39,511 nucleotides of DNA, taken from positions 1 to 39,511 of the forward strand of contig JAEUUU010000106.1 of NCBI GenBank assembly GCA_016787345.1, read 5' to 3'. The position numbers were made by a program, and so were the translations under genes. Shown piece after piece: positions 6,968 to 33,567 of this stretch. This DNA comes from Saprospiraceae bacterium (GTDB lineage: Bacteria > Bacteroidota > Bacteroidia > Chitinophagales > Saprospiraceae). The first letter of the stretch is position 1; each line of letters begins with the position of its first letter. Below the pieces are notes generated by a model. That model worked only from the letters and a program-made list of their open reading frames with translations, was not told the origin of the DNA and ran no database searches.

Positions 6968-7001
6968 TAAAAAACACTCCCCTCTTTGCGTGAAATAAAT
7001 A

Positions 7002-15314: not shown

Positions 15315-15317
15315 GGT

Positions 15318-15543: not shown

Positions 15544-17886
15544 ATGCGACCATACCCTCTTCTTTTGCCTTTTTTCTTCGCAGGCCTCACCCTCTTCCCC
15601 GCGCGAACAGCCGATGTGGCGCCCCGCCCGGCGGCCTGCGATCCCAATGCCGCTGCGTTCAGGGGTTACACTTTTTTGGTACCCGAAATTATTCACAAAA
15701 ACGCGGCCTATGCGCCCTTTTTCGTGCATTGGGACGACTATTACCAGCGCTATTATTTCAACCGCGACATTCAAAAAGAGGAAAACGTGCTGGAATGGAA
15801 AGAACGCTTTTGCGACCAGGCCACTCCGAAAGATATCGAGTACCTCGTGTACGAATCAAGATTCGACGAACTGGCCGACCTGCGCGCCGCCGCTGCCGAC
15901 CCCGAAGGCAAACGCGCCCTGCCCTACGGCTTGCGCAACAACACTTTTGCCGCCGTTATCGTCGTCAACCGCTGCACGGAGGTGATTGATTACCTCATGT
16001 TTGCCAAAAAATGCGAGCCGCATGTAATTAGTTACGGCGGCTGGAAAGTGCCCGAACGCAACCCGGCCGACATGCAACTGCTCATCGAAGAGGGCAAAGG
16101 CCGTTTTGCCCAGGCCGAGTCGTATTTCCTGAAACTGCGCTACACCTACCAGATCGTCCGCCTGGCGCACTACGCCCGGCAATGGCAACAAACCGTCGAT
16201 CTCTACAACGAACTGATGCCCAAAGTGGACCGGCGCAAATCCAGTATCGTCTATTTTTGGGCGCTCGGACACCTCGCCGGCGCCCTCCAGCGACTGGGCC
16301 ATTATGCTGACGCCGCTTACCGCTACTCTATTGTTTTTCGCCATTGCCCGTCCAAACGCAACCAGGCCTACCGCAGTTTTTACATTCGCAACGATCAGGA
16401 CTGGCAGCAAGCCCTGCGGCTGTGTCGCAACGATTCGGAAAAATCAACCCTTTTTCTCCTCCGCTCCGGCGGCGACGCCGTGTATGCCGTGGAGGATATG
16501 CAGCAAATCTATGCCCTCGACCCCGCCAATCCGCAACTGGACCTGTTGCTGATCAGCGCTTTGCAGCAATTTGAAAAAAACCTGCTTCGCACGCTGGTCA
16601 CCGATCTCAAATACGGCAAAACCCTGGGCGCGGCCAAACGCGAAGAAACCGCCGCCTCACTGCTCAAACTGCAGTTTTTTGTACAGGAAGCCCTGCGTGC
16701 CGGTCAATTGGCCAACCCCAAACTCTGGCGCTGTGCCGAGGGGTACATACAACTGCTGGCGGGCGACCGTTATGCAGCGGGCAAGCAGTTCGACCGTGCC
16801 GAAAAAGCCCTCGACCTGGACGAACAGTACGACCGGGAACTGAAACGCCAGATCGACGTCTGGCGCATCCTCGCCGAGATACTGCGTCTCGACCCCAGGG
16901 ATACCTATGTCGACCAGGCAATCTTTCGCATCAGGAGTTACAAGTTGTTCAATGAATTTCCGTCGTTTGAACCGTTTTTACAAGACTATGCCTCCGAGGT
17001 GTATGCCCAGAACGAGCATCCGGGCAAAGCCATTCTCGCCGCCTACCCGCCCGAAGCGCTGGGCTACAACCCCGAGCTCGCGGTGCTCGACGATCTGTTA
17101 AAAGCTTCGGAAGAAGACAACCCGATCCTGCTGGAAAAAACGATGGGCGGCGATTCCAACCTCAACAACGTGCGCGCCCGGTTGCTGGAGATCAAAGGCG
17201 CGTACCTGCTGGGCCAGGGACAACCCGAGGCCGCCGTGGCCACGATGCGCAAAATTACCCCGACCGAACAGGTCAAAATGAAACGATTCAGCGCCTTTAA
17301 CGAGGTGATGATCGAACGAGTGCATTTTCCCGGACAGATTGTGGCCGATTCACTGGCTATGACGCGCCTGCAAATTGCTGAACGGATTATCGAGAATGAT
17401 TTCCAGGCCAAAGCCGCTCTTGCCGTCGACGATCCGTCGGCGGCCCGGTATTATTACCAGAACGGTCTGGCTTATTACAACATGTCCTATTTCGGCTATG
17501 CCTGGAACGTGACCGATTTTTACCGCAGCGGATACAACTGGCTGCGTTTGCCACTGGGGCCCGTTTTCCCGCTGAAAGGCTCGCCCTCCGGCAACCGGGA
17601 AAACACCGATCTCAGCGTGGCGCTGGACTATTTTGAAAAAACGATGGCCGTATCGAACGATCCCGAACTATCGGCCAGGGCTGCCTTTATGGCCGCGCGT
17701 TGCCAGCAAAAAATGTGGTTCCTGCAAGCCGGCAACGGTTACAAATTCGGCAGTCCGCTCATCCCCGTCCCGCCGCCGGCATATCGCGGCTACTACGACA
17801 TTTTGCAGACGAAATACGGTAAAACCGACTTTTACAATCAAATGGTAAAAGAGTGCAAATGGCTGGGGGAGTATTCGAAGGGATGA
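15544..17886 (+). CDS. Large secreted helical-repeat (TPR-like) protein, unknown function
   Basis: A 780-residue protein, not recognised as a named family. The N-terminus (MRPYPLLLPFFFAGLTLFPA) is a plausible signal peptide. The rest is rich in Ala, Leu, Tyr and Arg and reads as consecutive helices, with TPR-like stretches such as GHLAGALQRLGHYADAAYRY and AAGKQFDRAEKALDLDEQYD. It is likely a periplasmic or cell-surface scaffold. Related large proteins with 'MWFLQ' and 'YF-x-x-M' segments occur singly in Saprospiria-like genomes, but I cannot cite one. The ATG directly abuts the inverted repeat at 15484-15543, so any promoter must lie in the repeat cluster or further upstream. Its TGA stop (17884-17886) is the first three bases of the next large palindrome. 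Confidence 0.75.
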   Translation: MRPYPLLLPFFFAGLTLFPARTADVAPRPAACDPNAAAFRGYTFLVPEIIHKNAAYAPFFVHWDDYYQRYYFNRDIQKEENVLEWKERFCDQATPKDIEYLVYESRFDELADLRAAAADPEGKRALPYGLRNNTFAAVIVVNRCTEVIDYLMFAKKCEPHVISYGGWKVPERNPADMQLLIEEGKGRFAQAESYFLKLRYTYQIVRLAHYARQWQQTVDLYNELMPKVDRRKSSIVYFWALGHLAGALQRLGHYADAAYRYSIVFRHCPSKRNQAYRSFYIRNDQDWQQALRLCRNDSEKSTLFLLRSGGDAVYAVEDMQQIYALDPANPQLDLLLISALQQFEKNLLRTLVTDLKYGKTLGAAKREETAASLLKLQFFVQEALRAGQLANPKLWRCAEGYIQLLAGDRYAAGKQFDRAEKALDLDEQYDRELKRQIDVWRILAEILRLDPRDTYVDQAIFRIRSYKLFNEFPSFEPFLQDYASEVYAQNEHPGKAILAAYPPEALGYNPELAVLDDLLKASEEDNPILLEKTMGGDSNLNNVRARLLEIKGAYLLGQGQPEAAVATMRKITPTEQVKMKRFSAFNEVMIERVHFPGQIVADSLAMTRLQIAERIIENDFQAKAALAVDDPSAARYYYQNGLAYYNMSYFGYAWNVTDFYRSGYNWLRLPLGPVFPLKGSPSGNRENTDLSVALDYFEKTMAVSNDPELSARAAFMAARCQQKMWFLQAGNGYKFGSPLIPVPPPAYRGYYDILQTKYGKTDFYNQMVKECKWLGEYSKG

Positions 17887-18032
17887 GGATGCGAGGATTT
17901 GAGGATGCGAGGATTTGAAAAAAGGGTTACTACTGCTCTCGAATACGTTTGTTATTTTGTGGATTTAACGTATTCGAGAGCAGTAGTAACCCTTTTTTCA
18001 AATCCTCGCATCCTCGCATCCTCGCATCCTCA
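17884..18032. repeat. Palindromic element A1 with octamer arms, 66-bp arms
   Basis: Left arm 17884-17949 and right arm 17967-18032 are near-perfect reverse complements around a 17-nt loop. The outer part of each arm is built of 8-bp units GAGGATGC and GAGGATTT; the arms differ only in one unit's version. The inner part is the core AAAAGGGTTACTACTGCTC. It fills the gap between convergent genes, so it probably works as a two-way terminator. Confidence 0.92.
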
Positions 18033-18045
18033 CATCCTCAACCGA

Positions 18046-18465
18046 TCAAAACATCTCCACGCCGCCGAAGTGGAAAGCGCCTTCGATCGCGGCGTTTTCG
18101 TCGCTGTCGGAGCCGTGAACGGCGTTTTCACCTACGCTGGTGGCGTATTTGGCGCGGATGGTGCCGGGAGCGGCGTTGGCCGGGTTGGTGGCGCCGATGA
18201 GGGTGCGGAAATCTTCCACGGCATTGTCTTTTTCGAGGATAGCCGCCACGATCGGGCCGCTGCTCATAAACTCGACGAGTTCGCCGTAGAACGGACGCTC
18301 GCGGTGTACGGCGTAGAATTCGCCGGCTTTTTCTGCACTGAGTTTGGTCAGCTTCATCGCAACGATGCGGAAGCCGGCGGCATTGATCATCTGGAGGATG
18401 TTGCCGATGTTGCCGGCGCGTACTGCGTCGGGCTTGATCATGGTAAATGTTCTGTTGCCAGCCAT
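18046..18465 (-). CDS. ndk: Nucleoside diphosphate kinase
   Basis: Transfers the gamma phosphate of ATP to NDPs through a phospho-histidine, keeping NTP and dNTP pools balanced. The start at 18465 gives [15 protein letters not shown] and 139 residues, the family's usual length; a longer reading from 18507 includes leader sequence. The catalytic His117 lies in the signature NAVHGSDS, at the same number as in E. coli Ndk, and K11 and R104 fit the nucleotide site. It is divergent from nrnA and convergent with the 780-residue protein gene across a large palindrome. Confidence 0.97.
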
Positions 18466-18504
18466 CTGTATGGTGTGTTTGAATGAATGTTGAATTTGGG
18501 CGCG

Positions 18505-18512
18505 CAAAATTA
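18505..18512 (-). promoter_or_regulatory. Candidate ndk promoter (-7 element)
   Basis: On the minus strand the sequence reads TAATTTTG, a match to TAnnTTTG, 40 bp upstream of the ndk start; this gives a leader of roughly 30 nt. Confidence 0.45.
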
Positions 18513-18599
18513 CAGCGAGATTTTATTTCAAAAGGCCGTCGAAAAAAGCTTTTATAAAAAATAAAATGCGGCGACCCCACAAAAGCAAGGCGAAGACCG

Positions 18600-18607
18600 T
18601 ACTTTTG
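18600..18607 (+). promoter_or_regulatory. Candidate promoter for the nrnA-FKBP operon (-7 element)
   Basis: TACTTTTG matches TAnnTTTG and lies 38 bp before the nrnA ATG at 18646. It is arranged back to back with the ndk element about 90 bp away. Confidence 0.45.
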
Positions 18608-18645
18608 TGGCCGTTTTCCCCCAAATACCCTGTGCTTCCCGATAC

Positions 18646-19650
18646 ATGGAAATTTCGTCCGAGCTCCGCCAATTGCTGATCATTCCGCAAAACGTGGCCA
18701 TTTTCTCCCACCGCAATCCCGACGGCGATGCCATCGGCAGCTCGCTGGCACTGCGGCACTACCTCGAACAATACGGCCATACCGTTCACGTCCTTTTTCC
18801 TTCCGAATACCCGGAAGAACTGGAATTCCTGCCCGGCGCCGAGGAAATCCTGATCTGGGACATTCACACCGAAGAGTGCAAACACGTTTTGCAACAAAAA
18901 AACGTGTTCTTTTTCCTCGATTTCAACTCGCTGAGCCGGATCGATAAAATGGGCGACTTTGTCAAAAACCTGCCCGGCAAACGAATCCTGATTGACCACC
19001 ACCTGTACCCCGAACCCATTGCCGAGCATACCTTCTCCGAACCCGAAGCCAGCAGCACCTGCGAACTGGTCTACCGCTTCATCGATGCCATGGGCGACTC
19101 CGTGCGGGTCAATCCCAAAGTCGGCGAATGTATTTACACCGGTATTGTGACCGACACCGGCTCGTTCCGCCACGCCACCAACCCCAGGGTTTTTCGCATC
19201 GTGGCCGACCTGATCGATCGCGGCATGGACGATACGGCCGTGCAGGACAGTATTTTTAATTCCCAAAAAGAAAAAAACCTGCGCCTGCTCGGGCACTGCC
19301 TGGCCAACCGCATGGAATACTGGCCGGAATTGCGCACCGCCCTCATCTGGCTGTCGAAAAAAGATTACGAACAGTTCAGCATTCAGCGCGGCGATACCGA
19401 GGGCATCGTCAATTACCTGCTGACCATCAAAGACGTGAAAATGGCGGCTTTTATCCACAACCAGCCAACCATCGTCAAACTCAGCCTGCGCTCCAAAGGC
19501 GATCTCGACGTACAGGAAATTTGCCGCAAACACTTCAACGGCGGCGGCCATAAAAATGCCGCGGGCGCCTTTTCGCACGACAGTCTCAAAGCGACCATTG
19601 AAAAATTCAAAAACCTGCTGCCGGAATACAAGGCAGAATTATTGAAATGA
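18646..19650 (+). CDS. nrnA: DHH-family oligoribonuclease / pAp phosphatase
   Basis: NrnA-type enzymes degrade nano-RNAs from the RNA decay pathway and may dephosphorylate pAp. The start at 18646 (MEISSELRQLL) gives 334 residues, close to the usual ~320. DHH motif residues are visible: H22-x-N24-x-D26-x-D28 (HRNPDGDAIGSS), FLDFNS, D117-H118-H119 (IDHH), and TDTGSFRHA. The DHHA1 domain ends with the GGGH motif at 299-302 (GGGHKNAAGA). All metal ligands appear intact. It overlaps the following FKBP gene by four bases (ATGA), so they are translationally coupled. Confidence 0.92.
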   Translation: MEISSELRQLLIIPQNVAIFSHRNPDGDAIGSSLALRHYLEQYGHTVHVLFPSEYPEELEFLPGAEEILIWDIHTEECKHVLQQKNVFFFLDFNSLSRIDKMGDFVKNLPGKRILIDHHLYPEPIAEHTFSEPEASSTCELVYRFIDAMGDSVRVNPKVGECIYTGIVTDTGSFRHATNPRVFRIVADLIDRGMDDTAVQDSIFNSQKEKNLRLLGHCLANRMEYWPELRTALIWLSKKDYEQFSIQRGDTEGIVNYLLTIKDVKMAAFIHNQPTIVKLSLRSKGDLDVQEICRKHFNGGGHKNAAGAFSHDSLKATIEKFKNLLPEYKAELLK

Positions 19651-20522
19651 ACCATTTTCGCGGCCTTTTGCTGGTTTTTATGGCTGTTCTGACGCTAAGT
19701 AGCCCTGCCGATGCACAACAGGACACCCTGCGCACAGAGCACGGATTTTTGTTCGTCAACCACACCCAACGGCAAGGCGATTATCCCAAAGCCGAAGACT
19801 ATGTGATAGTACGGGTGGAAACCTGGCTGGGCGACACCTTGCTGTCGAGCACCAGTGCCATGGGCGGTTCGCGCGAGATTCAAATACCCACCCCCGAGCG
19901 GATGCCAAAACGAGTGCCGCCGTTTTTCGACGCCATCGTCCTGATGACGCGCGGCGACAGCGCCACGGTGCTGCAACCCGTCGACAGTCTGATCCGGAAA
20001 CTGACCCCGCAACGCTTCCATGATGAAAAATACCTGCGTTTTGATATCGTTCTGCTCGATTTTATGAGTGCAGCAGAACGGGACCGGAAAAAACAGGAGG
20101 AAACTGCTGTTATGGAAAAACGCCTGACCGAGGTGGAAGCGCAAACCCAACAACTGGCCAAAGATTTTAAAAAAGGTAAATTGAAGGATCAATTGGAAAA
20201 AACCCGATCCGGACTTCAGTATATCGTACACGAACCCGGCACGGGCCCTTTAATTGCAAAGGGCGACAATGTCAGCGTGCATTATTATGGCTGCCTGATG
20301 AATGGAGAAAAATTCGACGAGTCTTTCTCCCCCAATATGCCGCTGCCCTTTGTCGCAGGTGAAGGCCAGATGATCGCCGGCTTCGACGAAGGCGTTCTGC
20401 TGCTTCGCCACGGCGCCCGGGCAACCCTGTTTCTGCCCGCCAGGTTGGCCTATGGCCAGGAAGGAGCGGGAGATGTTATTCCGCCCAATTCAGACCTGAT
20501 CTTTTACATAGAAATTCAATAA
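19647..20522 (+). CDS. Secreted two-domain FKBP-type peptidyl-prolyl isomerase
   Basis: A 291-residue envelope protein that should catalyse cis-trans isomerisation of X-Pro bonds in exported proteins. It has a signal peptide (MNHFRGLLLVFMAVLTLSSPADAQ), an N-terminal domain of about 115 residues shared with its two neighbours (GFLFVNHT, VETWLGDTLLSS, LMTRGDSATV), a charged linker helix (about 140-185), and a C-terminal FKBP domain. The FKBP domain shows VSVHYYG, GEKFDES, MIAGFDEG and LAYGQEG, so the proline-binding pocket looks complete. It overlaps nrnA by 4 bp. Flavobacterial GldI is a related lipoprotein, but this protein has no lipobox. Confidence 0.9.
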   Translation: MNHFRGLLLVFMAVLTLSSPADAQQDTLRTEHGFLFVNHTQRQGDYPKAEDYVIVRVETWLGDTLLSSTSAMGGSREIQIPTPERMPKRVPPFFDAIVLMTRGDSATVLQPVDSLIRKLTPQRFHDEKYLRFDIVLLDFMSAAERDRKKQEETAVMEKRLTEVEAQTQQLAKDFKKGKLKDQLEKTRSGLQYIVHEPGTGPLIAKGDNVSVHYYGCLMNGEKFDESFSPNMPLPFVAGEGQMIAGFDEGVLLLRHGARATLFLPARLAYGQEGAGDVIPPNSDLIFYIEIQ

Positions 20523-20527
20523 CTGCT

Positions 20528-21124
20528 GTGATGATGAAACACCTTTTGGTTCTCCTCCTCTCCGGTCTTGCCCTGAGCCAGATGGCCTGCGGCGGCCAGT
20601 CGCCCAAAAACCAGACTGCCCCCGAAACCACGGCGGAAACACCGGCGGTCAAAGCGCCGCTTGCCGCCAGCGGCGAACCCACGGAAATGAATATCGGCGA
20701 CGTCCGTATCGTCAATTACACCAACGGCGGCGGTCGCAAGCCCAAGGAAACGGAAGTGGCAGTCGCCTATGTCGAAAACTGGGTGGCCGACACCCTGCTT
20801 GCCAGCAGCCGGATCAAATTCGGCGGCCCGCTCAACGTACCCATGAAACCGATCAAAGACCCCTCCGAAGGCGCCCTTCATTTTGCGCTGATGACGATGG
20901 GTATCGGCGACAGCGTCGTGGTGTATCGCCCGATCGACAAAGGTATTCGCAGGGTACTTTCACCTAAATATGCCAAAGAAACCATGATGCACGCCCATAT
21001 CGTGCTGGTCGACCTCAAAGATCCCAAAGATATTCCTGACCTTCAGGAGCAAATGAAAGCAGCGCCCGGAGGCCAGGCGCCTGCTTATATCCCTCCCAGC
21101 ACGCCGACACAGAAAAAACAATAG
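20528..21124 (+). CDS. Lipoprotein paralogue lacking the FKBP catalytic domain
   Basis: A 198-residue lipoprotein (lipobox LSQMAC, Cys at about residue 21) aligned by eye with the N-terminal domain of both neighbouring FKBPs: IVNYTNGGG, VENWVADTLLASS, LMTMGIGDSVVVYRPIDKGIRR, HIVLVDLKD. It then ends in a short Pro/Gly/Gln-rich tail where the others have a linker and PPIase domain. It thus appears to be a paralogue that lost, or never had, the catalytic part. The start could be 20528, 20531 or 20534 (three ATGs in a row). It begins 5 bp after the previous stop. Confidence 0.87.
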   Translation: MMMKHLLVLLLSGLALSQMACGGQSPKNQTAPETTAETPAVKAPLAASGEPTEMNIGDVRIVNYTNGGGRKPKETEVAVAYVENWVADTLLASSRIKFGGPLNVPMKPIKDPSEGALHFALMTMGIGDSVVVYRPIDKGIRRVLSPKYAKETMMHAHIVLVDLKDPKDIPDLQEQMKAAPGGQAPAYIPPSTPTQKKQ

Positions 21125-21173
21125 GCCGGCGCCGCATCGTTCCAACTTTCCATTCGATAATTCTATAACTCAC

Positions 21174-22058
21174 ATGCGTAATTTACTTTTTTTCATTCTC
21201 TTCGGAGGAATCCTGATGAGCCAGATCGCCTGCAACCAGGGCGGCAACGGCATTAAGACCCGCCATGGCCACATGTTCACCAACCATACCAACGGCAGCG
21301 GCCCCAAAGCCCAGTCCGGTGAACTGGTCACCGTCAACGTCTACACCTGGCTGAACGACTCGCTGATCAGCAGCACCGTCCGCGATATGGGCGGCGCGCG
21401 CGAAGTCATGCTCCCCGATACCGCGCAACTCAACGAACGCGCCCCGGCCGTTTTCGACGCTCTTTTTATGATGACAAAAGGCGATAGCGCCACGCTCATC
21501 CAGAAAGTCGACTCCGTCATGGCCCGCGCCATCCCGAAAGAACTCGGCGATGTAAAAGAAATCCGCTACGAAATCGTCATGGTCGACCTGGTCGACAAAA
21601 CTGGCGTTCAGAAAAAAATGGAGGAAGAGCAGAAAAAAGCCGAAGAAGCCCGCGTGCTCGGCGTGGAAGTGGAGAAAAATCTTCGCGCCAGCCTCGCCGA
21701 CTACAAAGCGAAAAAACTCGGCGCCAAACTGCAAAAAACAGCTTCCGGCCTCGAATACATCATTCATGAAAAAGGCAACGGCGCTCCCCTCCAAAAAGGC
21801 GAAACCGTACCCACCAACTACCTGGGCATGTTCCAGAAAGATGGCGAGATTTTCGACGGCTCTTACGACCGCGGCGGCGCCGTACCCTTCCAGGTTGGCG
21901 GCATGATTCCTGGTTTCGACGAAGGTCTGTTGCTGCTCAACCACGGTGCAAAAGCCACCTTCTTCATCCCCTGGAACCTGGCCTACGGCGAGCAAGGCAT
22001 GCCGGGCAGCCCGATCGGCCCGAAAGCCGATCTCGCTTTCTACGTTGAAGTAGAATAA
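21174..22058 (+). CDS. FKBP-type peptidyl-prolyl isomerase lipoprotein
   Basis: A 294-residue lipoprotein (lipobox MSQIAC, Cys about residue 20). It has the same architecture as the first FKBP of the operon: N-terminal domain (MFTNHTNGSG, VYTWLNDSLISST, MMTKGDSATL), a Lys/Glu-rich linker predicted to be a coiled coil (about 140-180), and a C-terminal FKBP domain with EIFDGSYD, MIPGFDEG and LAYGEQG. The pocket motifs are intact. It lies 49 bp after the truncated paralogue and is last in the nrnA operon; a 32-bp-arm palindrome follows it. Confidence 0.9.
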   Translation: MRNLLFFILFGGILMSQIACNQGGNGIKTRHGHMFTNHTNGSGPKAQSGELVTVNVYTWLNDSLISSTVRDMGGAREVMLPDTAQLNERAPAVFDALFMMTKGDSATLIQKVDSVMARAIPKELGDVKEIRYEIVMVDLVDKTGVQKKMEEEQKKAEEARVLGVEVEKNLRASLADYKAKKLGAKLQKTASGLEYIIHEKGNGAPLQKGETVPTNYLGMFQKDGEIFDGSYDRGGAVPFQVGGMIPGFDEGLLLLNHGAKATFFIPWNLAYGEQGMPGSPIGPKADLAFYVEVE

Positions 22059-22070
22059 GCGAGCAGCGGG

Positions 22071-22146
22071 TTATTTCACGCCAAGACGCAAAGCGCGCAA
22101 AGCACCAATTCAAACTTTGCGCGCTTTGCGTCTTGGCGTGAAATAA
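22071..22146. terminator. Perfect 32-bp-arm palindrome after the FKBP operon
   Basis: Left arm 22071-22102 and right arm 22115-22146 are exact reverse complements around a 12-nt loop. Arm words (ACGCAAAGCGCGCAAAG) resemble the repeat family seen after enolase. Placed 12 bp after the FKBP stop, it probably ends the operon's transcript; there is no long U-tract. Confidence 0.7.
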
Positions 22147-22297
22147 ACAGGCATTATAGCCACACAAAGGGCGCAAAGGAAATTGACACTCCAGCGACCG
22201 CTAAATGAACTTTTTTGCCCGCCCCTTTATTTACCAGCCATATTATCACACTATCTTAAACTGCCTGCAAAACGGCAGATCCCATCCGTTTCCAACC

Positions 22298-23408
22298 ATG
22301 ACGATCGAACAGTTAAAAGATCTGAAAGACAAGTTGGCGGTCCTCAGGAGGTATCTTTGACGTGGACAACCGAGTCCGCGAAATTGAAGACCTGAGCACC
22401 GAAACCCTTTCTCCCAGTTTCTGGAACGACCCCAAACGCGCCGAAGGCATTCAGCGCAAAATTGGCCTCAACAAAAAATGGGTCGACGAATACAATGTGC
22501 TCGCCCGCGAAGTCGACGACCTCGAAGGCCTCTTCGAGTTCCAGAAAGAAGGCCTCAGCACCGAAGAAGAAGTTGAAGCCCAATACCGCAAAACTTCCGA
22601 GCTGCTGGCCGACGCCGAATTCCGCAGTACCCTCAACAAAAAAGAAGACGCCATGAACGCCGTGCTCCAGATTAACGCAGGAGCAGGCGGCACCGAAGCT
22701 TGCGACTGGGCATCCATGCTCCTGCGCATGTATCGAATGTGGGCCGACAAAAACGGCTTCAAAGTCAACGACATCTTCGAACAGGACGGCGACGCGGCCG
22801 GCATCAAATCAGCGAGTATCGAAATCGTGGGCGATTACGCCTACGGCTGGCTCAAAGGCGAAAATGGTGTGCACCGCCTCGTGCGGGTCAGCCCATTCAA
22901 TGCCCAGGGCAAACGCCAGACCTCTTTCTCCTCCGTGTTTGTGTACCCGCTCGTGGAAGACGACGATATCGAGATCGTCGTCAGCCCCGACGACGTGCGG
23001 TGGGACGTATTCCGCGCCTCCGGCGCGGGTGGCCAGCACGTCAACCGGACGGAGTCGGCCGTGCGCGTCACACACATCCCGACGGGTATCGTCGCCGAAT
23101 GTCAGCAGGATCGCAGCCAGCACCGCAACCGCGAAATTGCCATGACCCTGCTCAAAAGCCGCCTCCACCAACTCGAAATGCGCAAACGCGAGGAGGAAAA
23201 AGCCAAGGTGGAAGCCGGCAAAAACAAGATCGAATGGGGCAGCCAAATCCGATCTTACGTACTCGACGACCGCTGGGTCAAAGACCTCCGCACCGGCCAT
23301 AAAGTGCACAACCCCGACGCCGTACTCGATGGCGACCTCCAGAATTTCCTCAAAGCCTATCTGATGTGGGAAAGCAACCCGACGGAGGTGGAAGCGGAGG
23401 AGGATTAG
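22298..23408 (+). CDS. prfB: Peptide chain release factor 2, with programmed +1 frameshift
   Basis: RF2 reads UAA and UGA stops and triggers peptide release. Translation starts at ATG 22298 and meets an in-frame TGA (22358-22360) after 20 codons. The ribosome must shift +1 at CTT-TGA-C, preceded by the internal Shine-Dalgarno AGGAGG (22346-22351), so the coding sequence is 22298-22357 joined to 22359-23408, 369 residues. This is the classic RF2 autoregulation: low RF2 favours the shift. Downstream features are the SPF anticodon-like motif (VSPFNAQ), the GGQ catalytic motif in SGAGGQHVNRTESAV, and the RSYVLDD-x-x-VKDLRTG end. It is not a pseudogene. Confidence 0.97.
22346..22361 (+). promoter_or_regulatory. 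RF2 programmed frameshift site
   Basis: AGGAGGTATCTTTGAC: an internal Shine-Dalgarno, then the slippery CUU codon and a UGA followed by C, with the three-base spacing seen in E. coli prfB. It makes RF2 synthesis respond to RF2 level. Confidence 0.95.
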
Positions 23409-23419
23409 TTCATTCCATA

Positions 23420-25667: not shown

Positions 25668-25737
25668 ATTCCGAATTGCGGGTCTTTTTCACAAAAATAA
25701 GGGAGGAAGTTGCCCGCTTCACACTTTCTCCGGACAC

Positions 25738-25773
25738 AAAAAAATCCCGCTCTCCAACAATCGGAAAGCGGGA
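25738..25773 (-). terminator. fusA rho-independent terminator
   Basis: On the minus strand an 11-bp imperfect stem (TCCCGCTTTCC / GGAGAGCGGGA) with a 7-nt loop is followed by A plus seven T, about 60 bp past the fusA stop. Confidence 0.82.
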
Positions 25774-25782
25774 CTTATCAGC

Positions 25783-25813
25783 ACCCTTACAGGGTTTTAA
25801 ACCCTGTAAGGGT
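25783..25813. repeat. 31-bp palindrome (ACCCTTACAGGGTTT)
   Basis: Two 15-bp arms, ACCCTTACAGGGTTT and its exact complement, around a single central T. It lies between the fusA stop and its terminator hairpin. The arm sequence is very regular and could be a dispersed palindromic repeat; a related ACAGGGT word occurs near rpsL. Confidence 0.75.
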
Positions 25814-25831
25814 TAGGAATGGCAGTAAAAC

Positions 25832-27967
25832 TTATGCTTTCACCGTGCCTTTTGCCTTGGCGATCACCTGCTCGGCGACGTTGGTCGGCGCGGCGGCGTA
25901 GTGGCTGAATTCCATGGTGGAAGCAGCGCGGCCCGAGGTGAGGGTACGGAGTTGGGTCACGTAGCCAAACATTTCGGCGAGCGGAACTTCGGCCTGGATA
26001 GCAACAGCGCCACCGATACGGGTTTCCTGGCCTTTCGGCAGGCCGCGGCGGCGGTTCAAGTCGCCGATCACCGGACCGACGTACTCTTCGGGCGTTACGA
26101 TTTCCAGTTTCATGATCGGCTCCATGATCTGCGGTTTGCACTTCGGAGCAGCTTCGCGGAAGCCTTCTTTGGCGCAAAGTTCGAAAGCGATCGGCTTGGA
26201 GTCGACGGCGTGCATGCCACCGTCAACCACGCGCACTTTCATCGAATCGATGTTGTAACCGGCCAGAATACCGTTGCTCATCATTTGGTTGAAACCATCG
26301 ACGATGGGCTTCTGGTAGTTCTTGTCGATCGCGCCGCCCACAATACCCCACTCGAACTGGAGTTTTTTCTTGCCGCTTTTGAAGTCGTCGCTTTGCAGGA
26401 ATTCCTCGTCGGCAGGGCCGAGTTCGAATTCCATTTCAGCGAAGAGACCCGAGCCACCGGTTTGTTTTTTCAAACGCTCGCGGTGCGACACTTTGGTCGT
26501 CAGTGCCTCTTTGTAGTTGACCTGCGGAGCACCCTGGTTGCACTCGACTTTGAACTCGCGACGCAGACGGTCGACGATGATTTCGAGGTGCAACTCACCC
26601 ATACCGGAGATGACGGTCTGGTTGGTTTCTTCGTCGTAGCGTACGCGGAAGGTCGGATCTTCTTCGGCCAGCTTGTTGAGGGCCATGCCGAGTTTGTCGA
26701 GGTCTTTCTGCGTTTTGGGTTCTACGGCCAGACCGATAACCGGCTCGGGGAACACCATACTTTCGAGTACGATCGGGTTGTCGACGTCGCAGAGGGTATC
26801 GCCCGTGCGGATGTCTTTGAAACCTACAGCAGCAGCGATATCACCGGCTTCGACTTTATCGATCGGATTCTGCTTGTTGGCGTGCATCTGGTAGAGACGG
26901 CTGATACGCTCTTTATCGCCCGTACGGGTGTTGAGAACATAAGAACCGGCGTCCAGTTTGCCCGAGTAGCAGCGGATGAAGCACAGACGGCCCACGAAGG
27001 GGTCGGTAGCAATTTTAAAGGCCAGCGCGGCAAAGGGCTCGCTAACGGAGGGTTTGCGGGTGATTTCTGCGTCCGTTTTCGGGTTCGTGCCTTTTACGGC
27101 AGCGATATCGATCGGCGAAGGGAGGTAGTAGCAAACTGCGTCGAGGCAAGCCTGCACGCCTTTGTTTTTGTAGGCCGAGCCGCACATCACCGGCGTCATT
27201 TTCATGTCGCAAACGGCGGCGCGAACAGCGGCGCGCATTTCTTCCACGGTGATGGAATCGGGGTCGTCGAAGAATTTTTCGAGCAGGTTATCGTCGTAAG
27301 AAGCGACTTCTTCGATCAATTTCTGACGGTATTCCAGAACGGTGTCTTTCAGATCGTCGGGGATCGGAATGACGTTGAAGGTCATGCCCTGGTCGGCTTC
27401 GTTCCAGACGATAGCCTGGTTGGTCACGAGGTCGACCACGCCTTTGAATTTATCTTCGGCGCCGATAGGCACCTGGAGCGGTACTGCGTTGGAGCCCAGT
27501 TTGGCTTTCATGTCTTTGACGACCATGAAGAAGTCGGCGCCGGTGCGGTCCATTTTATTGACGAATCCGATACGCGGAACGCGGTAGTTGTCGGCCAGGC
27601 GCCAGTTGGTTTCGGACTGCGGCTCTACGCCGTCGACGGCGGAGAACAGGAACACCAGACCGTCGAGCACACGCAGCGAGCGGTTCACCTCCACCGTAAA
27701 GTCGACGTGGCCGGGGGTATCGATGATGTTGAAGTCGTAGCCTTGGTCTTCGACCGTCCAGACGCATTTGGTGGCAGCGGAAGTAATGGTGATGCCACGC
27801 TCCTGCTCCTGCTCCATCCAGTCCATGGTTGCAGCGCCTTCGTGTACTTCACCGATTTTGTGCGTGACACCCGTGTAATAAAGAATACGCTCCGTAGTGG
27901 TCGTTTTCCCGGCATCAATGTGAGCGGCAATGCCGATGTTGCGGGTAAACCGGAGATCCTTTGACAT
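25832..27967 (-). CDS. fusA: Translation elongation factor G
   Basis: EF-G is the GTPase that translocates tRNAs and mRNA and helps recycle ribosomes. The 711-residue protein has the P-loop [15 protein letters not shown] (residues 16-30), the switch II region [17 protein letters not shown] and the domain IV tip region ([14 protein letters not shown]), all as expected. It is the third gene of the str operon, but lies 291 bp after rpsG rather than close to it, so it may have its own promoter or be controlled separately. A terminator with U-tract follows. Confidence 0.98.
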
Positions 27968-28169
27968 GAGAGTTGAGTGTTGTAGAGTGATGGTAAATTT
28001 TTTACGTCGAGGTTTTCAGGTGTTTCAAAACAATGTATTGCGGCGAAGTTTTAAAATGTCTGCTTGTTGAACATAAATTTCGCGCAATAGCATAACGGTT
28101 TTAAAAAGTTTTGGAAAATCAAAATTGGATTTGAAATTCCCGGAGGCTTTAAAAACCGATACCGCCGGA

Positions 28170-28216
28170 AATTACCCGGCGCGGGTCGTGATAACAGGAC
28201 GCGGCGCCGGGCAATT
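28170..28216 (-). terminator. GC-rich hairpin between rpsG and fusA
   Basis: Arms AATTACCCGGCGC (28170-28182) and GCGCCGGGCAATT (28204-28216) pair with one G-T-type mismatch around a 21-nt loop, about 45 bp after the rpsG stop. A T-run (GGTTTTTAAA on the minus strand) follows some 20 bases later. It could attenuate or end transcription before fusA. The rest of the 291-bp gap is AT-rich without a clear promoter match. Confidence 0.45.
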
Positions 28217-28258
28217 TTCGACGGTAGGTAGGCGATATGGACGCTTCCAGCGTACGCT

Positions 28259-28726
28259 TTACGACCGGAAGTGGGCAAAAGCGCGGTTGGCTTCGGCCAT
28301 TTTATGGGTGTCTTCACGCTTTTTAACAGCGCTGCCTTCGCCTTTGCTGGCGGCAATGATCTCGGCGGCAAGTTTTTCAGCCATTCCTTTGCCGGCGCGG
28401 GCGCGGGCGTAGCGAATCAGCCATTTCATGCCGATGGAAATTTTGCGGTTGGCCGGCAATTCCGTGGGGATCTGGAAAGTGGCGCCACCAATACGGCGGC
28501 TGCGGACTTCCACTTGCGGCATGACGTTGTTCAAGGCTTTTTTCCAGACTTGCAACTCGTCCTCGTTGGTGCGGCTTTTTACGAGATCCAATGCATCGTA
28601 AAAAATGCCATACGCCACGGTCTTCTTGCCTTCCCACATCAGGTTATTGACAAAACGGGTTACCATCGTGTCACTATACCGCGGATCGGGAGCCAATACT
28701 CGAGGTTTCGGTTTGTGCTTACGCAT
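28259..28726 (-). CDS. rpsG: 30S ribosomal protein S7
   Basis: S7 binds the 3' major domain of 16S rRNA and starts head assembly. The 155-residue protein begins [17 protein letters not shown] and contains the conserved [29 protein letters not shown] and RRIGG-x-T segments, and ends [19 protein letters not shown]. Length is normal. Second gene of the leftward str operon; a 181-bp gap with octamer repeats separates it from rpsL upstream. Confidence 0.97.
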
Positions 28727-28740
28727 TTTATAATGTGCTA

Positions 28741-28904
28741 ATTAATGAATGTGCTAATGTGCTAATTAGACAATGTGCTAATGTGCTAATTAGTTAATGT
28801 GCTAATCGGGGAATGTGTCAATGGCGTAATGTGGCTGGAAAAACTTCCTTCAAAAGGCGAAACGCCCAATTAGCACATTAGCACATTGTCTAATTAGCAC
28901 ACTA
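28741..28904. repeat. Inverted octamer arrays in the str operon
   Basis: Left part (28749-28832): consecutive 8-bp units ending in AAT, mainly GTGCTAAT with variants TAGACAAT, TAGTTAAT, CGGGGAAT, GTGTCAAT and GGCGTAAT. Right part (28867-28903): the same units in inverted orientation (ATTAGCAC, ATTGTCTA). The middle contains a GGCG-AAA-CGCC hairpin. It fills the whole rpsL-rpsG gap, where this operon normally has only a few bases. No gene is present. Confidence 0.88.
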
Positions 28905-28907
28905 ATA

Positions 28908-29282
28908 CTATTTCTTCGGCCGTTTCGAACCGTATTTCGAACGGCTTTTCTTGCGGTTGTTGACGCCGGCGGTATCCAGAGCGCCGCGCACAATGGTGTA
29001 ACGAACACCGGGAAGGTCTTTCACACGACCGCCGCGCACAAGTACGATGGAGTGCTCCTGCAGGTTGTGGCCCTCACCCGGAATGTAGCAAATCACCTCG
29101 ATTCCGTTCACCAAACGAACCTTGGCTACCTTGCGCAGGGCAGAGTTCGGCTTCTTCGGGGTGGTCGTGTACACACGGGTGCATACGCCGCGCTTCTGCG
29201 GAGAGGAACTCAACGCACGGCTTTTGCTTTTGTATTCTACCTGCTCGCGGCCCTTGCGGACCATCTGATTAATGGTTGGCAT
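28908..29282 (-). CDS. rpsL: 30S ribosomal protein S12
   Basis: S12 sits near the decoding centre and controls accuracy. The 124-residue protein starts [13 protein letters not shown] and has the CPQ/PQKRGVC-type block, [18 protein letters not shown] with Lys43, and [13 protein letters not shown]. Lys43 and the PGV lysine are wild-type, so no streptomycin-resistance substitution is seen. It is the first gene of the leftward str operon, preceded by a good promoter match and followed by an octamer array before rpsG. Confidence 0.98.
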
Positions 29283-29368
29283 AAACGCTTTTAAGCAAAA
29301 ATGTTATAACTCGTTCAAAATCAATTGGAAATTGACCCAATTCTTACAGGGTCTTCCAAAAGCGAACG

Positions 29369-29400
29369 CAAAGATACTTGCATCAGGCAAAATTTTCCAA
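29369..29400 (-). promoter_or_regulatory. str operon promoter (rpsL)
   Basis: On the minus strand TTG (29398-29400), 21 bp, then TATCTTTG (29369-29376), matching the Bacteroidota TTG / TAnnTTTG pattern. It lies about 87 bp upstream of the rpsL start, leaving a leader of roughly 80 nt. This is the best-formed promoter in the window. Confidence 0.65.
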
Positions 29401-29459
29401 ATCAGACTTAAAAATTTACCGCAAAGACCCTGGAACCGCCGAATTGCGTTCATAAGATC

Positions 29460-30122
29460 ATGCGTCGCTTTTTCCTGTTCCTCCGCTTTTCAGGGGTGTT
29501 GACAGTAATGCTGTTCAGCTGTCCTTTTCTCAATGCTCAGGTTACCAAGGCTCCGGAGCAGCCCTACACGCTGTTGTATGGCATTGACAACACGCTCAAA
29601 TTGACGGCAGCCGACACGCCCGACTCCTGTCTCTTGGTACGGATGGAAGGCGGTGAGGTCAGAAAATACGGAAACGGCCTATACGCACTGACTGTGCTGA
29701 CCGACTCGCCCCGAGTCCATCTCGACCTGTACGATACCTGCCGCAATACGCTGATCGACCGTCGTTTCTGTCAGGTGAAAAGCCTGCCGATCGCCATCGA
29801 ACTGGGCAAGCACCGCGGCGGACCAATTTCAGCGGCAGCATTCAAAGCGCACGGCGGCCTCAGCGCAAGGGTAACCGGTCTCGACATTCAGGCAACCTTG
29901 CCTGTCATCGGTTTCAGGGTCGTTTTTTTCAGCCGTACAAAAGATCAAACCTGGGAGGGCTATAATTCCGGTGGCAGATTTGAAGGCCGGGTACTGGAAC
30001 AATTGCAAACGGTGTCGGCCGGCGATGTGGTAATTTTTCGCCAGATATCCTACCGAAGCCCAGGGCCCCGCGGTGAACAACTGAGATTCAGCGAGCAGGA
30101 ACTGATCTTTGAAATCCGGTAA
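29460..30122 (+). CDS. Free-standing GldM C-terminal-domain-like secreted protein
   Basis: A 220-residue protein with a signal peptide (MRRFFLFLRFSGVLTVMLFS..LNAQ, cleavage near residue 27). The rest resembles the last two domains of GldM: LYGIDNTLKLTA, a GG-x-x-x-x-GNGLY repeat, RRFCQVKSLPIAIELGKHRGGPISAAAFKAHGGLSA, FRVVFFSRT, and GDVVIFRQISYRSPGPRGEQL. GldM normally spans the inner membrane and forms the shaft of the T9SS motor, with gldK, gldL and gldN alongside; here none is present and there is no membrane anchor. It is convergent with porQ, 5 bp apart. A separate periplasmic or secreted adaptor is possible. Confidence 0.78.
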   Translation: MRRFFLFLRFSGVLTVMLFSCPFLNAQVTKAPEQPYTLLYGIDNTLKLTAADTPDSCLLVRMEGGEVRKYGNGLYALTVLTDSPRVHLDLYDTCRNTLIDRRFCQVKSLPIAIELGKHRGGPISAAAFKAHGGLSARVTGLDIQATLPVIGFRVVFFSRTKDQTWEGYNSGGRFEGRVLEQLQTVSAGDVVIFRQISYRSPGPRGEQLRFSEQELIFEIR

Positions 30123-30127
30123 AAGCG

Positions 30128-31180
30128 TTAAAAAAAGTCTTTCAGATTCGTGCCGATACCGACGTGCAGCACTCCGCCGGCCAGGTGATAGGCCGCATAG
30201 CCCACGTCGAGCCGAAAACGGCTGATTTTAAAACCGACGCCACCGGAAAAGCCGGCCAGACTGCGGTAGTTGCGCACCGACAGTTCTTTTTTTCGTAAAT
30301 GATTGTAACCCAATCGTATACGAAACGACTCGTTTCTACCCAGCAGGAATTCACCGGAAAAAATGAAGTGGCGGAAAAAGTTGTCGATACCCGGATTGCC
30401 CTGTGTCTGGCTTTGTTCGCCGCCGAAAAGCAGCACATCGTCGTCCTGGTTGTTGGGGTCGTCGTAACGCAAATCCCACTGATTCAGGCTGTGTGCGATC
30501 ACTGTGAACCGAAAAGGCAGGTGTTTGAGCCGTTTGCTGAATCCTACCTGAAGGTCGTAGGGCAAATCTTCCTTCACACCGTTGTAAGTGGCCAGTTGAG
30601 CGCCTACGTTGCGCAACACGATGGCGGCCGAAAAGCGGTTGGCGGTATCCACATAAATCGCGCCTGCATCGGCAGCCAGTGCAGAGGCCTGATACACGTC
30701 GAGGGTGGAGACGCCAAAGCGCAGATTGAGTCCGAGGGAGATTCGATCGGTTAGTTGCCGCGCGCCGCCCAGGGTAAACGCCGTTTCGGAGGCTTTTACA
30801 TTGCCGGTCACATTGCCGAACTCATCGGCCTGTTTGATGTCGCCATAGCCGATGTATTGCAAACCACCGTGCACAGTAAAGCCAAGTTTGGGCAAATGCG
30901 CGCCGTAAGCGGCATAACCGTGCTGCACATCGGTCAAGAAGAAGTTGTGCTGGAAAGTCAGGCGGCCGTCCATCGAAGGGTTGAGCGCGGCAGGGTTGGC
31001 GGCAGCAAAGGCCAGATCGTCGTCCTGCACCGTGATCTGGGCGCCGCCCAAACCTGTGATTCGTGCCGAGGGCGGCAGAGTCATAAACTTAAAAACGTGC
31101 TGGCCGCCGGTGATCTGGGCCAGCAACTGCAACGGCAGGAGCCATGCAGCCAGAGCAAGAACAGGTAGTTGTTTTTTCAT
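30128..31180 (-). CDS. porQ: Type IX secretion system outer-membrane protein PorQ
   Basis: PorQ is a beta-barrel outer-membrane protein of the FadL/PorV-like group linked to the T9SS and to attachment of its cargo. Start at 31180 (MKKQLPVLALAAWLLPLQLLAQ) gives 350 residues with a signal peptide; an open frame further out is repeat sequence. Early motifs HVFKFMTLPPSARITGLGG and FAAANPAALNPSMDGRL are typical of PorQ/PorV relatives, followed by barrel strands. It ends 5 bp from the stop of the GldM-C-like gene. It lies downstream of the MORN lipoprotein, separated by a palindromic element of about 240 bp that must carry or displace its promoter. Confidence 0.85.
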   Translation of the reverse strand: MKKQLPVLALAAWLLPLQLLAQITGGQHVFKFMTLPPSARITGLGGAQITVQDDDLAFAAANPAALNPSMDGRLTFQHNFFLTDVQHGYAAYGAHLPKLGFTVHGGLQYIGYGDIKQADEFGNVTGNVKASETAFTLGGARQLTDRISLGLNLRFGVSTLDVYQASALAADAGAIYVDTANRFSAAIVLRNVGAQLATYNGVKEDLPYDLQVGFSKRLKHLPFRFTVIAHSLNQWDLRYDDPNNQDDDVLLFGGEQSQTQGNPGIDNFFRHFIFSGEFLLGRNESFRIRLGYNHLRKKELSVRNYRSLAGFSGGVGFKISRFRLDVGYAAYHLAGGVLHVGIGTNLKDFF

Positions 31181-31200
31181 GGCAAAACGTTGTTTTTTAT

Positions 31201-31436
31201 GAGGATGCGAGGATGCGAGGATGCGAGGATTTGACAAAAGGGTTATTTCTGCTCTCGGGTTTTGGTGAATTGGTGAATTGGTTATAAAAGTGGGATTTCT
31301 GCTCACAATTCAGAGATTTTGGGCCAACAGGCAAAAAAACCGAGCCCGGGAGCAGAAATAACCCTTTTGTCAAATCCTCGCATCCTCAAATCCTCGCATC
31401 CTCAAATCCTCGCATCCTCAAATCCTCGCATCCTCA
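31201..31436. repeat. Nested palindromic element A2 with octamer arms
   Basis: Outer arms 31201-31259 and 31344-31436 pair through GAGGATGC/GAGGATTT octamers and the core CAAAAGGGTTATTTCTGCTC (one mismatch). Inside lies part of a second element with GTGAATTG octamers, a variant core (GTGGGATTTCTGCTCAC) and the module CAGAGATTTT...CAGGCAAAAA...CCGAGCCC, also found in element A3. The TGA stop of the MORN lipoprotein is in the last octamer-like unit. Confidence 0.9.
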
Positions 31437-32048
31437 ATCCTTCTTCCACCTCGTCTGGCACATGCCGAGTTTGCAATCGGCGATACGGACCAGGGCGCCG
31501 GTGGTATCGTATTCTTTCAATTCGCCGTCTTCAACGGGGCCGTCTTCGGTCGGGACGTAGTTGCCCTCGGTTTTGAGAACGCCGGTGTCGTAATATTCGG
31601 TAAAGGGGCCATTTTCTTCGCCGTTTTTGAACATGACTTTTTCCGCTACCGTGCCATTGGCATAATAAGCAAGGCTCAGTCCTTCGATTTGGCCTTTGAC
31701 AAATGTCTGTTCTACCATCAGGACGCCTTTATCGGAGAATTTCTGATATTTTCCTGAAAAAGTGCCATTGTCGTAATGCTCCACAATGTCGACCTGACCA
31801 TTGGTGTAAAACAGGCGGCGTTCGCCGTGAAGCGAGTCGTTCTGATAGGTGGCTTCTTCCAGCAGTTTTCCTTCGGGGCTGAAGCGCTGGTAGCGACCGT
31901 GTTTGGCAAAATCTTTTTTTCGCCGTTCGAAACGCTCCATGTTACCCAGGGAATCGCGGTTTTCAATTGTTTCAACGGGGGGCTCGCCTGCACAGGCAGC
32001 GAGAAAAAGGAGTAGAAGCGCAAGCAGGCTCAAGCGGTTTGTTTGCAT
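31434..32048 (-). CDS. MORN-repeat (YwqK-like) lipoprotein
   Basis: A 204-residue lipoprotein: MQTNRLSLLALLLLFLAAC with Cys at residue 19. The mature part consists of MORN-variant repeats of about 23 residues: GRYQRFSPEGKLLEEATYQNDS, GERRLFYTNGQVDIVEHYDNG, GKYQKFSDKGVLMVEQTFVKG, and two more. Such proteins are often labelled as YwqK-family antitoxins, but the repeat is a general beta-hairpin scaffold and no toxin is next to it. It probably sits in the periplasm or outer membrane. porQ lies downstream on the same strand. Confidence 0.82.
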   Translation of the reverse strand: MQTNRLSLLALLLLFLAACAGEPPVETIENRDSLGNMERFERRKKDFAKHGRYQRFSPEGKLLEEATYQNDSLHGERRLFYTNGQVDIVEHYDNGTFSGKYQKFSDKGVLMVEQTFVKGQIEGLSLAYYANGTVAEKVMFKNGEENGPFTEYYDTGVLKTEGNYVPTEDGPVEDGELKEYDTTGALVRIADCKLGMCQTRWKKD

Positions 32049-32201
32049 GGCGTAAGATCAATTTTGAGTGGATAAAATCGTGCAGCGATGCAAACGCAAA
32101 GGTTGACGACGAAATTCTGAATAAGGCTGCCTGAGTGAAAAAATTTCGGCGCAAACTTTTGTGCGGAGTTGGATCTTTCGCCGGCAAATTTTTCCTGTCT
32201 C

Positions 32202-33377
32202 ATGTCGCAAAGAATCACCCTGCAGGCCTGGTGGCATTTTTTTCGCAGTTTTTGGTCGAACCCGCGGGCCCGGGCAGTCGGCCTGGCATTTTCGCTGTGT
32301 TCCTGGAGTTTCGGCAGTTGGGTGGTGCATATCCCGCACGTGAAAGCCGCCCTGCAACTCGACGACGCACAACTTGGCTGGGCGCTTTTCGGTTTGCCGG
32401 CCGGGCAATTGTTCATCAACCCGATCTCCGGTCGCTTAGCCGGGCATTTTGGCCCCTCGCGCATCTGCATTGTTGCAGCGGCGAGCACGGCGTTGTTGCT
32501 GGTGTTGCCCGTTCTGGCGCCTTCCATGGCGTTGCTGGTGGGCGGACTGGTCTTGTTCGGCGCGTCTTTGGCTTTGCTGGGCATGGCCATGAACGCCTGC
32601 GTGCCCGAAGTGGAAATAGAAGGCCGACATTCGATCATGGCCATCTGTCACGGCCTGTGGAGCCTGGGCGGCATGTTGAGTTCCGCTTTGGCCAGCGCCC
32701 TGCTGGGTGCGGGCTGGTTGCCACGTCAGCATATTTTGCTGGCGTCGTCGGTCATGTTATTGGTTTTGTTGGCGATTGCCCCTACCCTTCGCCGTATTCC
32801 CAAGCCAGAACACCCCGATTCGGCACATCATGGCATGGCGCGCCCGACGAAAAATCTGGTTTTGCTGGTCCTGATCGGCTTTTTTGCCTTATTGTCGGAA
32901 GGACTGGCATTCGACTGGAGCGGGGTGTTTCTGCGCGATTTCAGGGGCGCCGGGCCGGCAGCGGCGGCATTGGGTTTTACGGCATTTACCATGGCCATGA
33001 CGATCGGGCGATTTGCCGGTGATTTGCTGATTGCACGCCACGGTGAACGCCGCCTGTTGGTGATATGCGGACTAGTGGCAGCCACGGGACTGAGCATGGC
33101 GATATTTATTCCGACGCTCTGGGGCGGATGGCTGGGGTTCTGTATTATGGGGCTGGGTTGCTCTCTGGCCGCGCCCATGTTGTTCAGCATGTCGATGCGC
33201 CTGCCCAACGTCACACCGGCCGCCGGTCTGGCGACTTTCGTTACTTTTAGTTTTTTAGCTTTTCTGGCTGGTCCTCCCCTGATCGGACTGATCGCAAACG
33301 TGGTGAGCCTGCCGGTGGCTATGATGGGCGTGGCAGGTTTGTTGTTGCTGGGAGTGGTGCTGGCAAGGCAGATCTGA
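32202..33377 (+). CDS. MFS transporter (YbjJ-like)
   Basis: A 391-residue major-facilitator carrier with about 12 predicted membrane helices and no signal peptide. The start at 32202 gives MSQRITLQAWWHFF; an upstream in-frame start at 32169 adds poor sequence. Early segments FGSWVVHIPHVKAALQLDDAQLGWALFGLP and the conserved loop GRLAGHFGPSRI look like the YbjJ/fucose-permease-related group. The substrate is unknown; sugars or drugs are possible. Its stop is followed within 3 bp by octamer repeats. Confidence 0.85.
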   Translation: MSQRITLQAWWHFFRSFWSNPRARAVGLAFSLCSWSFGSWVVHIPHVKAALQLDDAQLGWALFGLPAGQLFINPISGRLAGHFGPSRICIVAAASTALLLVLPVLAPSMALLVGGLVLFGASLALLGMAMNACVPEVEIEGRHSIMAICHGLWSLGGMLSSALASALLGAGWLPRQHILLASSVMLLVLLAIAPTLRRIPKPEHPDSAHHGMARPTKNLVLLVLIGFFALLSEGLAFDWSGVFLRDFRGAGPAAAALGFTAFTMAMTIGRFAGDLLIARHGERRLLVICGLVAATGLSMAIFIPTLWGGWLGFCIMGLGCSLAAPMLFSMSMRLPNVTPAAGLATFVTFSFLAFLAGPPLIGLIANVVSLPVAMMGVAGLLLLGVVLARQI

Positions 33378-33380
33378 ATG

Positions 33381-33565
33381 GTTATTTGGTGAGTTGGTGA
33401 GTTGGTGAGTTGGTGAGTTGGTGAGTTGGTTATTTGGTGAATTGGTGAATTGGTTATAAAAGGGTTACTTCTGCTCACATTTCAGAGATTTTGCCTACAG
33501 GCAAAAACCGAGCCCGAGAGCAGAAGTAACCCTTTTATAACCAAATAACCGATTCACCAATTCAC
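33381..33565. repeat. Palindromic element A3 with octamer arrays
   Basis: Left array: GTTATTTG, five GTGAGTTG, GTTATTTG, two GTGAATTG. Core arms GGTTATAAAAGGGTTACTTC (33451 on) and its complement pair over 25 bp. The inside has a TTTTGCC-TACA-GGCAAAA hairpin. Right array: the same octamers inverted (CAAATAAC, CGATTCAC, CAATTCAC) but in a different order. It lies exactly between the stops of the convergent MFS and PDZ genes. Confidence 0.92.
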
Positions 33566-33567
33566 CA

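Follow-up and report, generated by a model that had tools for sequence, protein, structure and literature searches.

Three intergenic palindromes and their family

The window analysed here is a 39,511-nucleotide stretch of contig JAEUUU010000106.1 from a Saprospiraceae bacterium (assembly GCA_016787345.1; contig C160 of genome G000, a draft whose 191 contigs total 5,281,146 bases). Three of its intergenic regions hold long palindromes, A1, A2 and A3, which are members of a dispersed family. Elements of this family mostly have arms of matching type, lie behind stop codons and, when compared with a sister species at the same loci, differ in their word arrays, in the orientation of their centres and, at a few loci, in the identity of the centre or the arm type. 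A1, A2 and A3 share one layout, in which an array of short words is followed by a 19-bp core, a loop, the inverted core and an inverted array. An earlier note on the window had recognised the common core with its inverted partner, the inverted octamer arrays outside it at all three sites and the fact that the two arrays of A3 arrange one set of octamers differently. These observations stand, with the end of A1 moved one unit outward from 18032 to 18039. The first octamer of A1 overlaps the TGA stop (17884-17886) of the left-hand gene, and the right array of A2 runs into the stop codon (31434-31436) of a minus-strand gene. The parts of the three elements, with the basis for each in brackets where given, are as follows.

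17885..17916, plus strand: A1 left array, four GAGGATGC/GAGGATTT octamers (sequence reading, tandem repeat)
17920..17938, plus strand: A1 core, AAAAGGGTTACTACTGCTC (exact match)
17939..17977, no strand: A1 loop, 39 nt; the sister species has an unrelated loop at this locus
17978..17996, minus strand: A1 inverted core (exact match)
18000..18039, minus strand: A1 right array, five inverted octamers, from the core outward TT GC GC GC GT
31201..31232, plus strand: A2 outer left array, four GAGGAT octamers (reading, tandem repeat, unit parsing)
31236..31254, plus strand: A2 outer core (core match)
31261..31304, plus strand: half-element nested in A2, GGTGAATT octamers and a degenerate core (31286-31304), 92% to A3
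31305..31349, no strand: A2 innermost loop, related to the A3 loop; its sister-species counterpart is inverted (0.47 when compared forward, 0.78 as reverse complement)
31350..31368, minus strand: A2 inverted core (core match)
31372..31435, minus strand: A2 right array, eight inverted octamers, TT and GC alternating
about 33380..33456, plus strand: A3 left array, GGTTATTT/GGTGAGTT/GGTGAATT octamers, beginning just past the stop codon of a gene that ends at 33377
33458..33476, plus strand: A3 core, AAAAGGGTTACTTCTGCTC (core match)
33477..33517, no strand: A3 loop, 41 nt
33518..33536, minus strand: A3 inverted core (core match)
about 33537..33567, minus strand: A3 right array, the left-array octamers in changed order, ending at the stop of a minus-strand gene (33568)

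Neither of the two outcomes that the earlier note had named as refuting it was found: the core occurs well beyond these three sites, and the octamers do not behave as chance repeats. Exact matches numbered 56 in G000 (26 forward, 30 reverse) versus none for a reversed-pattern control, and among the 60 genomes searched the exact core occurred in only one other, G025 (30 matches). This genome, a draft of about 640 contigs, represents a sister species in the same GTDB genus and is taken to be the Saprospiraceae metagenome-assembled genome (MAG) SJ871, as searching named genomes for the core extended by TCG returned seven stretches, all from MAG Saprospiraceae bacterium SJ871. Long blastn matches between the stretches fetched from G000 and G025 mostly showed 89-97% identity. 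When up to two mismatches were allowed, the core was matched 221 times in G000 and 162 times in G025 (reversed-pattern control, one each), and at most once in any of seven other congeners, for which the reversed pattern gave zero to five matches. As far as searched, the core is therefore confined to the two sister species. Four viral contigs also carried the exact core, each as a single copy with no inverted partner within about 190 nt; these were taken as chance matches, and carriage by phage was rejected.

To describe the family, 41 innermost core pairs were taken from the window and 36 further G000 stretches, with loops below 300 nt by the limit of the search. Left arms consisted of GAGGAT octamers (16 elements), GGGTTTT heptamers (13), GGTGA octamers (8) or GGTTGATGAG decamers (2), with two unclassified. 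Two octamer, one heptamer and one decamer word type, four in all, thus recur across loci with the same core. The two arms were of one word type in 38 of the 41 elements, the exceptions being A2, L053 and L064, and the unit next to the core was GAGGATTT in all 14 G000 elements whose GAGGAT arrays were parsed on both sides. Loops resembled each other more within an array type (0.294) than between types (0.190; reached in 0 of 5000 permutations) among the 34 elements with loops below 130 nt and one of the three main types. Loop families thus track array type, which indicates that the elements spread as units. The earlier description of the arms as locus-specific and locally made from 8-bp units must accordingly be abandoned: the fourfold repeat of GAGGATNN alone has 179 overlapping matches in G000, the octamers are not chance repeats, and the unit is not fixed at 8 bp. 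Several elements carry the core in tandem on one side (for example, L055, L064 and L067), and others are nested or chimeric, such as A2, in which half a GGTGA element lies inside GAGGAT arms, and L065:8505, in which heptamer arms lie inside octamer remnants.

No protein coding was seen in the elements and no Rfam match was found in the window. As RNA, A1 and A3 folded far more stably than shuffled sequences (z = -22.75 and -15.69, respectively), and folding was strong on both strands. By eye, the 5' arm is G-rich, giving the elements a strand asymmetry. The 3' arms look C-rich and G-poor with regular YC dinucleotides, which would make Rho-utilisation arrays a candidate, but the 5' arm would pair with them, and the candidate was set aside.

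Location behind stop codons

All 46 element rows, located with home-made gene calls, fell between called genes or at contig ends. Among the 41 with both neighbours present, 21 lay between convergent, 18 between co-directional and two between divergent genes, while a neighbour was missing for the other five. Arrays often start at a stop codon, and elements lie behind stop codons, mostly between convergent genes. For the 27 sources with background counts, which were picked because they hold elements, 19 of 34 elements were placed convergently, whereas only 36 of the 273 remaining pairs of adjacent genes were convergent (p = 9e-8). Conversely, the core (at up to three mismatches) was present in 18 of 53 convergent spacers shorter than 700 bp; the other 35 include ordinary terminator-like hairpins and other word palindromes. 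In one convergent spacer, a palindrome of GATGAAT words spans from stop to stop (L064:1047-1120).

At A1-A3 a hairpin is accompanied by a run of four to six T, and the core hairpin presents an A-run, a stem and a T-run on both strands. Together with the mostly convergent placement, this suggests that the elements may be bidirectional terminators, a role that fits their location and predicted folding and would explain why they are kept.

Differences between sister species and their explanation

With flanking DNA as the anchor, 20 orthologous centres for which both ends were available were compared between G000 and G025. Eleven had the same orientation (L052, L062, L046:11613, L055:1140, L186, L066, L051, L047, L059, L070:5093 and, weakly, L046:1236), seven were inverted (A2, L068, L067, L057, L187, L055:7919 and L189) and two were unrelated (A1 and L058). 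The loop at L068 is 100% identical once inverted. Five of the seven inverted pairs had letters of the inner core swapped together with the loop, and no such swap was seen in the 11 other pairs. At L058 the array type also differs, being GAGGAT in G000 and GGTGA in G025 (L214), and the opposite switch occurs at L188/L083, with GGTGA in G000 and GAGGAT in G025, where the contig ends in the element. Five loci (A3, three in L063 and L046:8048) were not comparable, as were L188/L083 and L185/L226, at which the element is cut off by the end of the sister contig. The A3 orthologue is split over two contig ends (the end of L108 and the start of L110), with insertion-sequence-like inverted ends, GAGGCTGTCTCACAAGT, in its loop; the remnants of this loop look inverted but were left out of the inversion count.

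Array length and unit order also differ between the two species at the same locus, which makes slippage plausible. The earlier note had proposed a non-autonomous element, or a repair or slippage process that adds 8-bp units, and both halves of this proposal survive in part: the common core is dispersed, no coding was seen and arrays change between sister species, whereas the local making of 8-bp units does not hold. Arms within an element resemble each other more than expected from array type. For example, the two cores of a G000 element differ at 1.27 of 19 positions, whereas randomly drawn partners of matching type differ at 2.15 (never below 1.66 in 2000 shuffles), and past the first unit the order of units was mirrored in 12 of 14 cases in G025 (43 of 2000 shuffles as good). 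In a separate observation, the flank at L054 (G000:C58, 67-1100) is 99.3% identical to G025 (L105), while the figure for L057, a similar locus of G000, is 94.5%. Recent exchange, a strain mixture and a misbinned contig are candidate readings.

On balance, A1-A3 are probably dispersed, non-autonomous hairpins, similar to repetitive extragenic palindromes (REPs) or miniature inverted-repeat transposable elements (MITEs), that occupy intergenic space at 3' ends, change through slippage and through template switching by the polymerase, and possibly serve as bidirectional terminators. The replication polymerase would switch template between the arms of the palindrome, leaving the loop inverted and one arm partly copied onto the other, and slippage would change the number of words. 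Exchange between elements, starting from the shared core or by nesting, could swap arms and loops; A2 and L065:8505 suggest that an element may nest in the centre of another whose outer arms are then lost. Template switching at inverted-repeat arms is described as homogenising the arms and inverting the spacer (PMC8604942), and palindrome inversions are described for the trnH-psbA spacer of plant chloroplasts (PMC2903610). Template switching covers the flips and slippage covers array length; switches of whole elements and the first arrival at a locus call for another process.

Several observations weigh against this interpretation. The switch of type at both ends of L058/L214 is unexplained by switching between arms alone, and the interpretation includes no mechanism of spreading. 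Core changes in the 18 orthologous pairs comprised 24 in one arm, six swaps and only four matched in both arms (three of these in A2), suggesting that copying between arms is slow or partial. In the 20 G025 elements the mismatch between arm cores (1.9 versus 2.44 for same-type partners; lowest shuffle, 1.8) is a weaker signal than in G000, and the mirrored unit order past the first unit in G000 (27 of 43; 33 of 2000 shuffles as good) is moderate. Homogenisation of arms is therefore at most slow or partial, or the agreement was inherited from the founding copy. For the terminator role, depletion between divergent genes is weak by itself (2 of 34 elements versus 54 of 273 other pairs, p = 0.058), and a terminator scan restricted to loops of 3-8 listed none of A1-A3.

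A dedicated enzyme, either a site-specific recombinase or a hairpin transposase, that recognises the 19-bp core and acts there to invert the loop and exchange arms is an unlikely source of these changes. It would accord with a core that stays fixed while arms and loops vary, with the inversion of seven of the 18 alignable orthologous centres, which is near half (95% interval 0.17-0.64), and with the type switches at two loci; two-way switches of whole array types are easier to explain with a core-specific enzyme. However, a classical inversion reaction would be expected to involve loops longer than the 37-45 nt seen here, and the letter swaps place breakpoints outside the innermost core letters but do not reveal one fixed point. 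No candidate gene was found, the Y1 loci being without the core, in searches not directed at genes specific to the two species. It is similarly doubtful that the core is a recombination site at which loops flip and arm types are exchanged between hairpins, producing 3'-end cassettes reshuffled across the genome.

The flips could also be assembly artefacts, as an assembler may enter the loop of a palindrome either way, both genomes are drafts, and several contigs end inside elements. This seems improbable, since changes in arrays and types are not of the artefact kind and the inverted pairs do not stand out in sequence: the longest exact inverted stretch was 12-57 nt in six of the seven inverted pairs (with L107 limited to 22 nt on one side and L189 left out) versus 19-54 nt in seven same-orientation pairs, and was short at L055:7919 (14/12) and L187 (22/25). 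As these stretches are no longer in inverted pairs, assembler confusion does not single them out.

The elements are quite unlikely to be plain REPs mobilised by a REP-associated tyrosine transposase (RAYT, of the Y1 type). Their copy number, palindromy and placement behind stops are as reported for REPs (PMC3733652), and Y1_Tnp matches occur in G000 (four) and G025 (two). In contrast to the trans-acting HUH/RAYT transposase suggested in the earlier note, none of these six loci carried the core at up to four mismatches (in 5-10 kb fetched from two incomplete assemblies). Moreover, Y1_Tnp is present in 34 of 42 congeners versus the exact core in two of 60 genomes, the GTAG/CGTC tag was not seen by eye at the core foot of the printed elements, and other repeated palindromes sit beside the Y1 gene at L099 and L101. 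At L099 (G000:C137), the Y1_Tnp match lies beside repeated GCCGCGATGCGGC palindromes, which also fill the convergent spacer of L057 (2195-2728). At L101, the palindrome AGCGCCGACCT on both sides of the match makes a candidate REP-RAYT pair; it is similar to CCGACCTCCAGGTCGG, palindromes of which frame a 170-bp tandem repeat in the window (15148-15543).

Purely functional, immobile bidirectional terminators, kept by selection for the RNA hairpin, are very unlikely. The convergent enrichment, the strong folding on both strands and the A-run and T-run around the core would suit them, but loop families common to unrelated loci and array type, nesting and tandem cores imply copying, the seven other congeners hold zero to one core copy, and several congeners have the site orthologous to A2 without an element. 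A DNA uptake signal was rejected, as 221 copies at up to two mismatches are too few against the about 1000 or more per genome described for such signals (PMC1852404).

If the elements are indeed dispersed hairpins reshaped by slippage and template switching, they would provide a natural record, at many loci, of how long palindromes change in array length, orientation and type over short evolutionary time. With about 20 comparable sites in two sister genomes, rates of spacer inversion and arm conversion would be measurable in wild bacteria. It would also have to be asked how species-restricted hairpins without an evident transposase spread, and why they settle between convergent genes.

Relatives, other repeats and known systems

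The words of the arms extend further than the core. Fourfold GAGGATNN was matched 48 times in G025 and 12 times in G016, and was not found in 39 other congeners. Word arrays without the core were present in 12 of 17 stretches from G016, G022, G015, G064 and G010, so the short-word palindrome has either a greater age or a wider distribution than the core. In other species, the interval orthologous to A2 could be recovered at 11 of 13 loci and that orthologous to A3 at none of 13. In G016, G034 and G028 the A2 interval is 96-99 bp long and lacks the element, while in G022 it holds a coreless palindrome of GTTGATGAGG-like words and in G006 and G031 heptamers resembling GTTATCC. That such words are common in the phylum was not borne out by the genomes sampled: in the class sample fourfold GAGGATNN occurred in only two of 345 genomes (G000 itself and G065), and in the phylum sample threefold TAATNTGC occurred in one of 118, again G000.

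Other repeats lie elsewhere in the window. A coreless palindrome at 28731-28904 has TAATGTGC/TAATTAGA octamers facing their inverted copy, and it is the palindrome to which the count for threefold TAATNTGC relates. Among the intergenic palindromes of CGCAGAG/CGCAAAG words (6832-7215, 22071-22146 and 35679-35836) are a tandem duplication roughly 165 bp long and an inverted pair that matches perfectly over 32 bp, and a 9-bp TTGATTCGA array spans 8.7 copies at 35375-35452. Two stretches 2503 bp apart in neighbouring minus-strand genes (36079-36552 and 38582-39055) are 74-80% alike and are probably a shared domain.

Within the open-licence PMC papers searched, no description of such composite elements was found, although several systems share some of their features. 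Bacterial MITEs, as characterised in PMC10969869, are likewise short, non-coding and dispersed with inverted termini, as which the core could be read. Here, in contrast, the arrays continue outside the inverted core, no parent insertion sequence was identified, nor any target duplication with orthologous intervals read at A2 alone, and no coding centre was seen in loops searched up to 300 nt. Hairpin elements of sponge mitochondria (PMC2800124) are similarly diverse, scattered and repeated invaders of intergenic regions, but belong to organelle DNA and are portrayed, in the abstract of that source, with no mention of short-word arms. The TAACTGA heptamer arrays of some Bacteroidetes (PMC4679880) are also intergenic tandem arrays of short words that vary among relatives, though they are described as direct rather than palindromic, as having no core and as lying mostly just upstream of starts in the main study genome. 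Template-switch mutation resembles the changes seen here in homogenising arms and inverting spacers, whereas the inverted spacers in yeast genes described in PMC8604942 gave substitutions of 2-5 bp and here whole loops of 37-139 nt are involved.

The closest parallels are REPs, bacterial interspersed mosaic elements (BIMEs) and REP doublets forming hairpins (REPINs), depicted in PMC3733652, PMC3116915 and PMC2817692 as high-copy, species-restricted extragenic palindromes whose inverted pairs form larger hairpins, and which lie between convergent and co-directional genes, near stop codons or supplying them. The present elements differ from these accounts in that no GTAG/CGTC tag was seen by eye at the core foot and no RAYT was found beside the core, so the family is not filed as REP. 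They also differ in having arms lengthened by arrays of 7-, 8- or 10-bp words, and a given locus can switch from one word type to another. The family is best described as bacterial hairpin repeats of a dispersed kind whose arms consist of short words, and it resembles REPs in copy number and location.

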